Part shown: piece after piece, positions 7,553 through 49,372 of the stretch
Numbering within the stretch: the first letter of the stretch is position 1
Layout: each line of letters begins with the position of its first letter
NCBI GenBank assembly: GCA_018334915.1
Contig: JAGXLB010000005.1
Coordinates: 1-49,409, forward strand
Length of the DNA stretch: 49,409 nucleotides
From: Candidatus Bipolaricaulota bacterium
Lineage (GTDB): Bacteria; Bipolaricaulota; Bipolaricaulia; M55B111
Direction of reading: 5' to 3'
Notes under the pieces: generated by a model
What the model saw: only the letters and a program-made list of their open reading frames with translations
The model's database searches: none
Told to the model about the DNA's origin: nothing
Made by a program: the position numbers and the translations under genes

Positions 7553-7817
7553 GTCAATTACCTCGCACCAAGGTGCGGGGCTTGTAGAAAAGCAAATTTG
7601 ACTACGGATTTTGTTCTTTTACAAAAGAAGGCCCAGCACTCAAATGAGACCTGCAACTTGGCTCAAGTACTCTAGGCTAGTTCCAAGACTGTAGGGGAAT
7701 AGGTAAAATTAACGGATTCTTAGCCCAAGCAGCTTTCCTCATTTGGGTGCTGGAGGTAAACCAGCCGATTCCTCCCCAGGGCAAGCCCTGGGGCTTCCTC
7801 GGCAAGTTTTGGTGAAA
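7553..7817 (+). repeat. Family A structured element, copy 1
   Basis: Occupies most of the 456-bp lexA-tRNA gap. After GTCAA (7553-7557) comes hairpin P1 (7561-7569 with 7572-7580), then TTGTAGAAAAG which can pair with CTTTTACAA (P2), long-range stem P3 (7634-7648 with 7738-7752, 15 bp with one T-G) and the 3' domain P4 (GCCGA with TCGGC enclosing CCCCAGGGC with GCCCTGGGG). Bases 7759-7817 are identical to 49314-49372 of copy 3. No open reading frame fits it. Strand is arbitrary because the stems read both ways. Confidence 0.8.
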
Positions 7818-8201: not shown

Positions 8202-8474
8202 GTGAAAGTTTTAAAGTCCGTCCTGCTGAAAATAATTAAGGTATATCAGAAAGCGGTATCACCAGGCCTCCCCAATACCTGTAGATTCTATCCGAGCTGT
8301 TCCGAGTACAGCAGACAGGCGATCGAAGAATACGGGGCAATAAAGGGTACTTATCTGGCTATCAAACGTGTACTTAAGTGCCACCCACTAAACTCCGGGG
8401 GATACGACCCTCTCCAGAAAGAGAGCGGAGAAGAGGAAACGGATTCCAAACAGGGAGGAAGTGTTACTCAGTAA
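8202..8474 (+). CDS. yidD: Membrane protein insertion efficiency factor YidD
   Basis: 90 residues. It has the family core: amphipathic N-terminal helix, [31 protein letters not shown], then [15 protein letters not shown] and GGYDP, including the conserved Cys residues of CRFYPSCS and KCHP. YidD is a small inner-membrane-associated protein that helps YidC insert membrane proteins. In most genomes it sits with rnpA-yidC; here it is alone, downstream of a tRNA. Start is GTG at 8202 with GCAGGAGAG upstream. It converges with glyS and the two coding regions overlap by 11 bp. Confidence 0.93.
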
Positions 8475-10527
8475 CTATCCTGGATAGGTCGCCGAGCTGG
8501 AGGAACGGTTCCTTCAGATAAAGCAAAAAGTTGATCCTGTTTTTCTGCTGCTCTTCGTCGTCGGCCATAACCATGACATTATCAAAGTATTCGTCTATAG
8601 GTTTCTTCAGGTTTAAAAGTTCTCGAGCCATTTCCTCGTAGGATTGCTCCCGGGCAAGTTTTTCTATCTCATTCATCTTTCCGGTAACCTTATTCCAGAG
8701 TACTTTTTCCTGGCTCAGCTGGAAAACCTTCGGGTTAACTTCACCTTTTTCTCTTCCTTCAGTAATATTAACTATTCTGGTAAACAAGTCGACGAGGTCC
8801 TCCATTTCCTGTCTTTCCTTAAACTTCTCGAGAGTCTTTGCCCTGAGGTAGGAGTCGTAAAAGTTAAGACCATCTCCGCCGCCTACTGCGTTTACCACGT
8901 CATAAGGTGTGTCGTAGATACGTTCCAGAACCCGCTCCATTCTTTCCTGAAAGTATTCTTTCAGGCTTCTTACTGCTTCGCCAGCCCCTTCCATTTCGTA
9001 TAAAGATCCAGCATAGTCGAGCAAATCCGAGGCATCGACGTTTATTTCTCTATCTATCATCGTCCTAACGATCCCATCAGCTTTTCTGCGAAGCCCGTAA
9101 GGGTCTTTCGTTCCAGTCGGCTTTTCCCCTATAAGAAAAGAACCGAGTAGAGTATCTAGCTTATCGGAAATACTGGCCACAAATGCAGTGGGGTGTTCCG
9201 GCGTTTCGTCCCGGGAATTTCGGGGTCTGTAGTGTTGTTTTATCCCCTGAACTACTTCCTCCGGCTCACCGGAAAACTCGGCATAATAAGCTCCAATAGT
9301 TCCTTCCAGCGAGGGAAACTCGTCCACAACTTCCGTAACAAGATCAGCCTTGGATAACTGTGTTGCCCTGTCGGCGAGTTCTGGGTCAACCTCCTCGAGG
9401 TTAGAGGAAAACCATTCGGCAATCTTCCGCATTCGAGCAACTTTGTCGTATATAGATCCAAGCTCCTCCTGAAAAGTAACCATCTTTAACTCGTCGAGGT
9501 ATTCCTCCAGTGATTGCTCTCTGTCATGGTCAAAGAAGAACTTGGAGTCCCTCAGCCTTGCGTTTATTACCGATTCGTAGCCACGCCTTACCCTGCCTGT
9601 TTCGTCTGACGGCCCGTCTCGAAACCCGAGGAACGTGGATATAGGGTCGCCTTCCGAGTCAACGAGTGGAATCAACCGGGCTTCTTCGGTAAGCGTCTTA
9701 AACAAGAGTTCGTCAGGAAGGTTAAGAAATTCATCGGGGAAACTACCGCTGACAACAGTTGGATATTCGACCGTATTGGAAAGCAATTCCAGGAATTCCT
9801 CTTCTGAGGCCATCGAGGCGGACAAATCGGATAAAATCTCGGAAATTTTGTGTTCCATCTTTTCTAGCCGACTCTCAGGGTCCGGAATTACGTAATTTGC
9901 CTCCAGTTTTTCCTCGTACCGACCCGGTTCATCCAGATTAACTATTTCATTTCCGTGAAACCTGTGTCCCCGCGTATTATCCGAAGCTTTTACGTTCCCA
10001 ATAGCGAGATCTACTTTCTTCGAACCCAGTAAACACGTTATCCAGCGAATCGGTCTTATGAACCTGACCGACGAATCGTCCCAGCGCATCTTCTCTGGCT
10101 GGTCCAGATTTTTAGTAATAGAGGACAACATTTCGGGGAGTAACTCCCTGGCCCCCTTTCCTTCTATTTTCTCGTCGACGAAAAAATAGGTGCCTTCCCC
10201 GGTATCTTCCACGTAAAGATCCTCTTCCGTTGCCCCGTTACCCTCCGCGAATTTCTCCGCGGCAATTGTATAGTCACCATTCTCGTCAAGTCCTATTTCC
10301 TTGGATGGACCACGGTGTTTCTCAACCCTGTCTTCCTGTCTCTTCTGAAGGTCAATTACCTTTATCGCCAGCCTCCTGGGAGTATAGAACAGTTCTATTT
10401 CACCGAAATTCAGCCTCTCGTCCTCTAAACCTTTCCGCAAATCGTTCCTTAAGTTCCTGGCTACTTCGGGGAGAAAAGCAGGAGGAATTTCCTCCGTTCC
10501 CAGTTCAAATAACAGGTCTTCGCTCAT
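8464..10527 (-). CDS. glyS: Glycyl-tRNA synthetase beta subunit
   Basis: 687 residues, normal for the family. It starts [21 protein letters not shown], the diagnostic N-terminus, and contains [30 protein letters not shown], the [25 protein letters not shown] segment and the [14 protein letters not shown] motif; the C-terminus is the anticodon-binding helical domain. It forms the alpha2beta2 GlyRS with GlyQ, providing tRNA binding. Its ATG lies inside the end of glyQ (23-bp overlap), so the pair is translationally coupled. It is the last gene of the minus-strand translation cluster. Confidence 0.97.
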
Positions 10528-26705: not shown

Positions 26706-26967
26706 GTCAAGAACCCTACCCCGAAGGCAGGGGCTTGAAAAACATATGAACAACAGTACTTTAAGGTTAAAAACCGGGAATTGACCCAGCAACCAATTGA
26801 GGAGACTAACCTGGCCAAATTAAACCAAACCTTTTCTCGTTGGCTTTGCCTAACAGGTTACGCGTACGATAACTTCACCAGGTCCCTATCTCAACTGGGT
26901 GCTGGAGGTAAACCAGCCGATCACTCCCCGCAGCACGCTGCAGGGATTCCTCGGCAGGTTTTGGTGA
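26706..26967 (+). repeat. Family A structured element, copy 2
   Basis: Fills most of the 408-bp sufS-ZIP gap. GTCAAGAACCC begins it, then P1 (CCCTACC with GGCAGGG), P3 (26787-26801 with 26890-26904, 13 of 15 pairs) and P4 (GCCGA 26916-26920 with TCGGC 26951-26955). The inner hairpin GCAGC/GCTGC replaces the sequence of the other copies but keeps the pairing. Between the P3 arms TAACCTG and CAGGTTA pair. It is the most diverged copy; P2 is not recognisable. Confidence 0.75.
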
Positions 26968-35767: not shown

Positions 35768-36241
35768 ATTACCCCTCCTGAGGTTATGGTGACTGACTGT
35801 TATTCAATAAATGCTGAATGTTATTACATTCACTATTGATTCAATTTTAACTCACTCTTCCTAATTAAACAACGTGTTTCGTGTAAACACACAAAAAATA
35901 TTCACAGAGTCATTATTACCGTAGAGCTATTCATGCCGGGCCTTCCCTTTATCGATTCCGACTGACTTATTCTATTCCATAAACCTCATCTATAAATCCC
36001 GGCTATTAATTAGCTGTTTTACCTTAATAAACTATAACCCCCAGAAAGACAAGAAACGAACCTTATCAACATTGGCCTAATTTACCGGAGGCGGTTCGAT
36101 AAAAATTGGACCCAACCGCCATATTACTCATGTTCCAAAGAAAATTCTTCACTGGATTCTTTGTAGATGGGTGTCAAGTTTGTCTTTGGGCGGGCTGATT
36201 CGTAACATTCACTGAACAAACTGGAAAACGGGGTGTAGAAT
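35768..36241. other. Non-coding divergent gap with two hairpins
   Basis: 474 bp between the AhpD-like gene (minus) and the GTPase gene (plus). I see no coding frame. GTGTTT (35874-35879) pairs with AAACAC (35885-35890), a possible operator near the AhpD-like promoter. GGCGGTT (36090-36096) pairs with AACCGCC (36114-36120) across a 17-base loop. The rest is AT-rich. Confidence 0.4.
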
Positions 36242-42247: not shown

Positions 42248-42322
42248 CCTAACTCAGTTTTTCTCCATTAATTGAAAGCAAGAAGCTATTCATAATTATC
42301 GACTCCATTTTATTCCCTGTAA

Positions 42323-42421
42323 CCTCTTGCCGCTTACCTGGCTGCCGGTTTTGGTCTACTGCTAAGTTTAAAGGGTTAAATCAGTAGCGAGATAAGCGGC
42401 AAGAGGGTATATAAGGATCAG
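42323..42421 (+). repeat. Family B palindromic repeat, copy 2 (upstream of uvrB)
   Basis: The best-formed copy. The outer arms, 42323-42336 and 42393-42406, pair perfectly over 14 bp (CCTCTTGCCGCTTA with its complement). Inside, CTACTG pairs with CAGTAG and TTTAA with TTAAA. It fills the centre of the 240-bp ruvB-uvrB gap and aligns with 44539-44629 in the same orientation. Confidence 0.75.
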
Positions 42422-49122: not shown

Positions 49123-49372
49123 GTCAAGAACCCCGCCCCAAGGGACGGGGTTTGTAGAAAAGCAGTCTTAACTAATATTTTTGGTCTTTTACAAAAGAAG
49201 ACTCAGCAGTCAATCGAGGACATGATCCTTGAAAAAGGATACAGGCAATTTAAACGTTGACCTCGCATTCTGGTAAAAATAAAGGAAACGGGCTCGATTG
49301 ACTGCTGGACAAAAACCAGCCGATTCCTCCCCAGGGCAAGCCCTGGGGCTTCCTCGGCAAGTTTTGGTGAAA
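49123..49372 (+). repeat. Family A structured element, copy 3
   Basis: Fills most of the 312 bp after the thioesterase gene. GTCAAGAA (49123-49130), P1 (49131-49139 with 49142-49150), P2 (TTGTAGAAAAG with CTTTTACAA), P3 (49204-49218 with 49293-49307, 15 perfect pairs), an inner ATCCTT-GAAA-AAGGAT hairpin, and P4. Bases 49314-49372 are identical to 7759-7817. No reading frame fits. Confidence 0.8.

Follow-up and report, generated by a model that had tools for sequence, protein, structure and literature searches.

A probable PATE-type, guide-directed single-strand transposable element with an inverting and exchangeable core in halophilic Candidatus Bipolaricaulota

Three repeats in a 49,409-bp stretch of DNA from a Candidatus Bipolaricaulota bacterium (the window; contig C209 of a 2.92-Mb, 316-contig genome) are very probably copies of a non-autonomous, guide-directed IS200/IS605-type single-strand-DNA element, a PATE, with a core probably reshaped by template switching. 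The element is dispersed, has exact ends and empty sites, duplicates no target sequence and shows covariation between guide and target, and its core has been recurrently inverted, exchanged, nested and palindromised. We infer that TnpA acts on it in trans and that the intermediate is single-stranded. They represent a new family of PATE type, naturally retargeted through its guides and with a core that inverts and is exchanged; its assignment to this transposition class is well supported.

The initial annotation of the window had described these repeats as three copies of a dispersed element, and rightly so: all three lie where it placed them. Its spans ran too far at the 3' side, as the element proper stops at TTTTG (7811, 26963 and 49366) and the GTGA that follows, counted there as part of the element, is target sequence. 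What it called P4, a nested 3' domain, is the element's other end hairpin. The complete copies in the window, with the end hairpins of copy 1, are as follows.

7553-7811, plus strand: copy 1, complete element of 259 bp, delimited by flank comparison and empty sites; the putative transposition strand is the bottom one, with the left end at 7811 and the right end at 7553
7812-7815, plus strand: target tetranucleotide of copy 1, GTGA (TCAC on the bottom strand), which is host sequence and remains at the junction
26706-26963, plus strand: copy 2, complete element of 258 bp, with target GTGA at 26964-26967
49123-49366, plus strand: copy 3, complete element of 244 bp, with target GTGA at 49367-49370
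7561-7580, minus strand: 5' subterminal hairpin of copy 1 (right-end hairpin of the bottom strand), CCTCGCACCAAGGTGCGGGG on the plus strand; variants keep pairing
7774-7793, minus strand: 3' subterminal hairpin of copy 1 (core of P4; left-end hairpin of the bottom strand), CCCCAGGGCAAGCCCTGGGG

Further copies were sought in the same and related genomes, as the initial annotation had proposed, and 78 distinct two-ended copies were gathered. They come from the window's genome and those of five halophilic Candidatus Bipolaricaulota relatives, of which four belong to its genus and one to its family. These copy counts are minima; at least 59 matches to copy 3 were present in the window's genome, several of them at contig ends. 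The element was absent from 54 other genomes of the class, and its 3' end was also found in named Candidatus Bipolaricaulota metagenome bins (Great Salt Lake, 'Tobar'), which may overlap genomes G001, G003, G004 and G005. Searches of plasmids, phages and IMG/VR by end patterns gave no match, and a looser pattern returned short matches outside the element only.

Boundaries were set by comparing the flanks of 54-56 distinct sites, together with empty sites. The element spans A|GTCAA...TTTTG|GTRA, is ∼240-265 bp long, and is surrounded by sequence that is random beyond the ends except for the A before GTCAA (45/54 sites) and the GTRA after TTTTG. Terminal inverted repeats are lacking, the two ends (GTCAA and TTTTG) differ, and each carries a subterminal hairpin. 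No ORF of 100 aa or more runs across the copies in the window (244-259 bp), which are too short for a transposase. Among the search hits, no pair placed two ends far apart around an ORF, as an autonomous full-length version would; of the solitary ends examined, some lay where a contig stops, and others belonged to degenerate copies or to copies interrupted by a group II intron. The end of such an intron (RF00029; 55 bits for the match in L014) breaks copies L014 (positions 1-81), L112 and L124 just downstream of the foot of the 5' or 3' hairpin, as if the hairpins were landing sites.

Comparison of filled and empty sites supports precise insertion 5' of GTRA, with nothing duplicated or lost. 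Two of the empty sites lie within the window itself:

36210-36216, minus strand: empty site for a copy of the relative G003 (L096), TTCA|GTGAATG, junction 36213/36212
8472-8479, minus strand: empty site for a copy of the relative G004 (L158), ATA|GTTAC, junction 8476/8475

In G004 the copy is inserted four codons short of the stop of the gene whose end in the window is at position 8464. For copy L062, the empty counterparts are related repeats in the window's genome (G000) and in G001, with GTGG already in place, and the diverged orthologous intergenic site of copy 2 is empty in both G001 (contig C33) and G003 (contig C50). Since the empty sites identify GTRA as host sequence, a match between guide and target reflects target choice rather than inheritance. 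A host-derived GTRA with no duplication or loss also excludes a TIR-type MITE moved by a DDE transposase, a candidate that was rejected on its unlike ends and the absent target duplication. Another dispersed repeat, bearing the motif CCGCTTACCTGGCTGCCGG / GGCAGCCAGGTAA, occurs at window 42320-42409 and in L044, L062, L023, L123 and L141; in the window it folds into an imperfect hairpin, and at L062 it serves as a target of the element.

The element is most likely mobilised in trans by a Y1 (HUH) TnpA, with the bottom strand as the probable active strand. TnpA would grip the end hairpins, the 4-base guide 5' of each hairpin would pair with a cleavage or target tetranucleotide, and insertion would take place 3' of TYAC (5' of GTRA on the plus strand) without duplication. 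At the left end, the bottom strand reads TYAC|CAAAAC... and carries GAAG directly 5' of the hairpin; at the right end CAAG stands before the hairpin, and TTCT-TGAC| comes after it. The corresponding positions in the window are:

7581-7584, minus strand: right guide of copy 1, CTTG on the plus strand and CAAG on the minus, fitting the right cleavage site TGAC (GTCA on the plus strand, 7553-7556)
7794-7797, minus strand: left guide of copy 1, CTTC on the plus strand and GAAG on the minus, predicted to pair with the target TYAC
26946-26949, minus strand: left guide position of copy 2, ATTC on the plus strand and GAAT on the minus, the last base no longer matching
49349-49352, minus strand: left guide of copy 3, CTTC on the plus strand and GAAG on the minus

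This layout resembles that of IS608 and ISDra2 (IS200/IS605 family, Y1 TnpA), which likewise have subterminal hairpins with 4-base guides 5' of them, a similar guide-to-cut distance, and insertion 3' of a short motif. IS608 inserts 3' of TTAC and pairs its guides GL AAAG with CL TTAC and GR GAAT with CR TCAA, including the pairs A+16:T-3 and A+17:T-4 (PMC5934647). By the IS608 code, TYAC should be served by (G or A)AAG and TGAC by CAAG, and the present element shows both; the left guide lies at +15 to +18 from the cut, versus from +16 in IS608. As the right guide CAAG and the site TGAC (TCAA in IS608) are both nearly invariant, their agreement is one of fit only. The A at -1 is analogous to the +1 preferences of IS608 and ISDra2. 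In contrast to those elements, the present one has no internal tnpA or tnpB, and its natural guide variants retarget the copies.

The left guide 4-mer predicts the target tetranucleotide by base pairing (N1 with -3 and N2 with -4, the very pairs used by IS608). Across 73 distinct insertion sites, copies whose first guide base was G had C at target position -3 in 38 cases and T in 7 (a G.T wobble), whereas those with A had T in 26 cases and C in none (Fisher p=2.4e-13, with sites treated as independent although copies are related). The next-best flank position gave p=0.0026 against the guide. Three copies with a G at the second guide position (CACT copies L103, L115 and L118) all had C at target -4 (CTAC; p=1.6e-4). 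The target rule is broken elsewhere in the tetranucleotide at 4 of the 73 right ends, and the left guide of copy 2 and the right guide of copy 3 each have one non-fitting base. Within this one dispersed family the insertion motif shifts with guide mutations as pairing, wobble included, predicts, so that genome sequence is enough to read a DNA-DNA target code. The family thereby offers a natural counterpart of engineered IS608 retargeting.

Among the TnpA genes examined, none was a Y1 TnpA bearing the element's ends; those found were interrupted, truncated or RAYT-like. Of the IS200-type TnpA genes in the window's genome, one is broken by an in-frame TAG (contig C241) and one is cut off by the contig end (C235); TnpB was not found there. 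The right ends of both genes fit the code by eye (AAAG and AATG for TTAC), their boundaries being putative. In the C241 gene (L031/L045, 920-1285) the single in-frame TAG occupies a usually conserved Trp position. G001 and G003 carry RAYT-like TnpA genes without the element's ends flanking them. These single-domain Y1 transposase genes (L073 in G001:C118; L072 in G003:C76) neighbour hairpins of their own: L073 is flanked by near-identical GC-rich hairpins, a REP-like pair, and L072 has GC-rich hairpins alongside. REP/REPIN sequences with RAYT (TnpA-REP) are similarly high-copy intergenic palindromes tied to Y1 transposases, with a 4-base guide 5' of the hairpin. The present element, however, has two distinct ends in a ∼250-bp unit, and a REP/REPIN identity was rejected for want of a GTAG/GTGG foot, the bottom-strand feet being CAAG and GAAG/AAAG/AATG.

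The element closely resembles the PATEs of Haloquadratum walsbyi (PMC3119063), which also lack terminal inverted repeats and target duplication, have near-terminal palindromes and a conserved terminal oligonucleotide that equals the target, are too short for a transposase, and occur as heterogeneous, frequently nested copies. The element described here differs in belonging to another phylum, in having a statistically demonstrated guide-target code, and in its central inverted-repeat cassette, which is inverted and exchanged. The initial annotation had centred on this middle part, a long-range stem (P3), and the arms it quoted are exact in all three copies:

7634-7648, plus strand: left P3 arm of copy 1, CAGCACTCAAATGAG
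7738-7752, plus strand: right P3 arm of copy 1, CTCATTTGGGTGCTG
7649-7737, plus strand: P3 interior of copy 1, inverted relative to L014, L033, L035, L027, L013 and L019 (91-98% identity)
26787-26801, plus strand: left P3 arm of copy 2, CAGCAACCAATTGAG
26890-26904, plus strand: right P3 arm of copy 2, CTCAACTGGGTGCTG
49204-49218, plus strand: left P3 arm of copy 3, CAGCAGTCAATCGAG
49293-49307, plus strand: right P3 arm of copy 3, CTCGATTGACTGCTG

The covariation reported for P3 was borne out and lies far from chance. Standard pairs made up 95% of cells in 29 distinct P3 arm pairs from the family, and two-sided changes occupied 39 cells against a mean of 10.7 in shuffles, a count reached by 0 of 1000 shuffles, which ignore relatedness. 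Counted by column, two-sided changes were not exceptional (7 columns versus 5.3 in the same shuffles, again without regard to relatedness). The start of the arm, CCAGCA (partner TGCTGG), is nearly invariant. Columns 7, 8 and 11-15 differ among copies yet remain paired; as read from the copies compared, the 5' and 3' hairpins likewise vary with pairing kept.

The interior between the arms is 85-100 bp long (about 40 bp in one family) and sorts into four sequence families. The same 5' and 3' modules bear different interior families, so that the copies are mosaics. Three of the four core families contain interiors in both orientations (29+/7-, 13+/8- and 13+/1-), which requires at least 3+1+1 = 5 inversion events. 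Near-identical copies elsewhere in the same genome hold the interior of copy 1 the other way round, and of all inverted pairs copy 1 and L014 are the most alike (97.5% identical). An assembly artefact was judged unlikely as the source of these inversions, given arms of only ∼15-17 bp and both orientations at contig-internal positions in several genomes. In addition, nested cassettes occur in L144, L171, L177 and L180, and L104 and L177 carry an exact palindrome where other copies have the imperfect 3' hairpin (P4).

The middle would form a second layer, an inverted-repeat cassette of P3 arms and interior. Its arms are kept complementary and its interior is inverted, exchanged or nested, for which DNA-polymerase template switching from one arm to the other is the most likely cause. 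Switching would occur while the element is single-stranded or replicating, and recombination among copies probably adds to it. Template switching is known to homogenise inverted-repeat arms and invert spacers (PMC8604942) and to yield compensatory changes in a single step (PMC8794818); inversion, exchange and palindromisation are, by good inference, its footprints here. As the process itself makes compensatory changes, selection for an RNA fold does not follow from the covariation in P3, and a core so freely replaced by its reverse complement makes selection for an RNA sequence unlikely. The argument of the initial annotation from kept pairing in P3 to selection is therefore undercut by recurrent loop inversion, cassette exchange and two P4 palindromisations. 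Its broader point that the folded form matters holds for the end hairpins, which fit use by a single-strand transposase, and of the two forms it allowed, RNA or single-stranded DNA, the latter is favoured. A caution for RNA discovery follows: covariation in an inverted-repeat stem may stem from template switching, and inverted loops should be checked for first.

A site-specific invertase or recombination between copies possibly underlies the core changes. In the fuller form of this idea the middle is a site-specific inversion or mobile-repeat system in its own right, similar to SMR-A, with a recombinase acting at the CCAGCA...TGCTGG arms. The near-invariance of those outer arm bases and the nested cassettes speak for it, as does the comparable SMR-A repeat of Haloquadratum, which is ∼110 bp long, flanked by inverted repeats, and inserts into PATE palindromes without duplication (PMC3119063). 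SMR-A also offers the parallel of inner inverted-repeat cassettes of about 75-150 bp within a PATE (PMC3119063). Such a system is nevertheless unlikely here, as no recombinase was identified and the palindromised P4 of two copies points to template switching acting on the element. Moreover, the inner unit, in contrast to SMR-A, was found inside the element only and at one orderly central position. The copy-1 cassette, the only one sought, was never found outside the element in six genomes, on which ground an independent SMR-A-type unit was rejected.

Quite improbable is a broader proposal in which the cassette serves a recombinase-driven variation system, or a transcript of the left end guides an unseen IscB-like nuclease in trans; if such a guide RNA were real, the element would join DNA-guided insertion with RNA-guided retention. 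The specific version, a stand-alone, ISC-derived omega-RNA (HEARO-like) serving IscB or IsrB in trans, with the left flank as guide and GTRA as target-adjacent motif, appears very unlikely. In ISC elements the RNA 5' end lies at the element end and the motif on the other side, a similar layout that counts in favour of this reading. The 5' end of some copies (GUCA..CCCC-hairpin-GGGGCUU..UUGAC) is like that of HEARO (RF02033), and weak HEARO matches of 23-32 bits were obtained (best 31.6, down to 1.1e-4 per genome), the copies scoring 19-32 bits. Across 100 class genomes HEARO-like hits were confined to G000, G004 and G005, all of them element carriers, and at least 4 of the 6 fall on element copies. 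The HEARO gathering score, however, is 83 bits, of which the copies reach about a third, and membership was rejected on that basis. As we read the alignment, the resemblance is strongest over the 5' ∼50 nt, and the copies lack the conserved core that L181 has; the element's core is instead replaced by cassettes. No IscB was found, its RRXRR domain (PF14239) being unmatched in 60 genomes in a search without a positive control, and TnpB was not found in the window's genome, as noted above. The resemblance may reflect shared ancestry of the transposon ends with ISC elements. L181 itself (G005:C36, 1501-1752, minus strand) resembles HEARO weakly (26 bits) but retains the GGAUGC..CCAGUCC core of that RNA family, and may be what is left of a true ISC/IscB element in the lineage; it adjoins and slightly overlaps the start of a tatC-like gene, with no nuclease gene visible.

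Least probable is a new family of structured non-coding RNA, dispersed as RNA genes or regulators with P3 under purifying selection: P3 and the end hairpins do covary, and many copies have stable predicted folds, but the interiors are found in either orientation and unrelated ones share the same ends, empty sites and random flanks indicate mobility, guide-target pairing explains the end hairpins as DNA, and compensatory changes arise by template switching without RNA selection (PMC8794818). An RNA function is accordingly unsupported. The initial annotation had recognised no known RNA family, and indeed no Rfam family matches the copies at threshold; in the Rfam comparison it suggested, a tRNA was the window's sole hit at gathering. 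On another contig of this genome, a copy of the element has beside it a pair of neighbouring c-di-GMP-I riboswitch-like matches that score slightly under gathering (L004, G000:C264, 1233-1363, minus strand).
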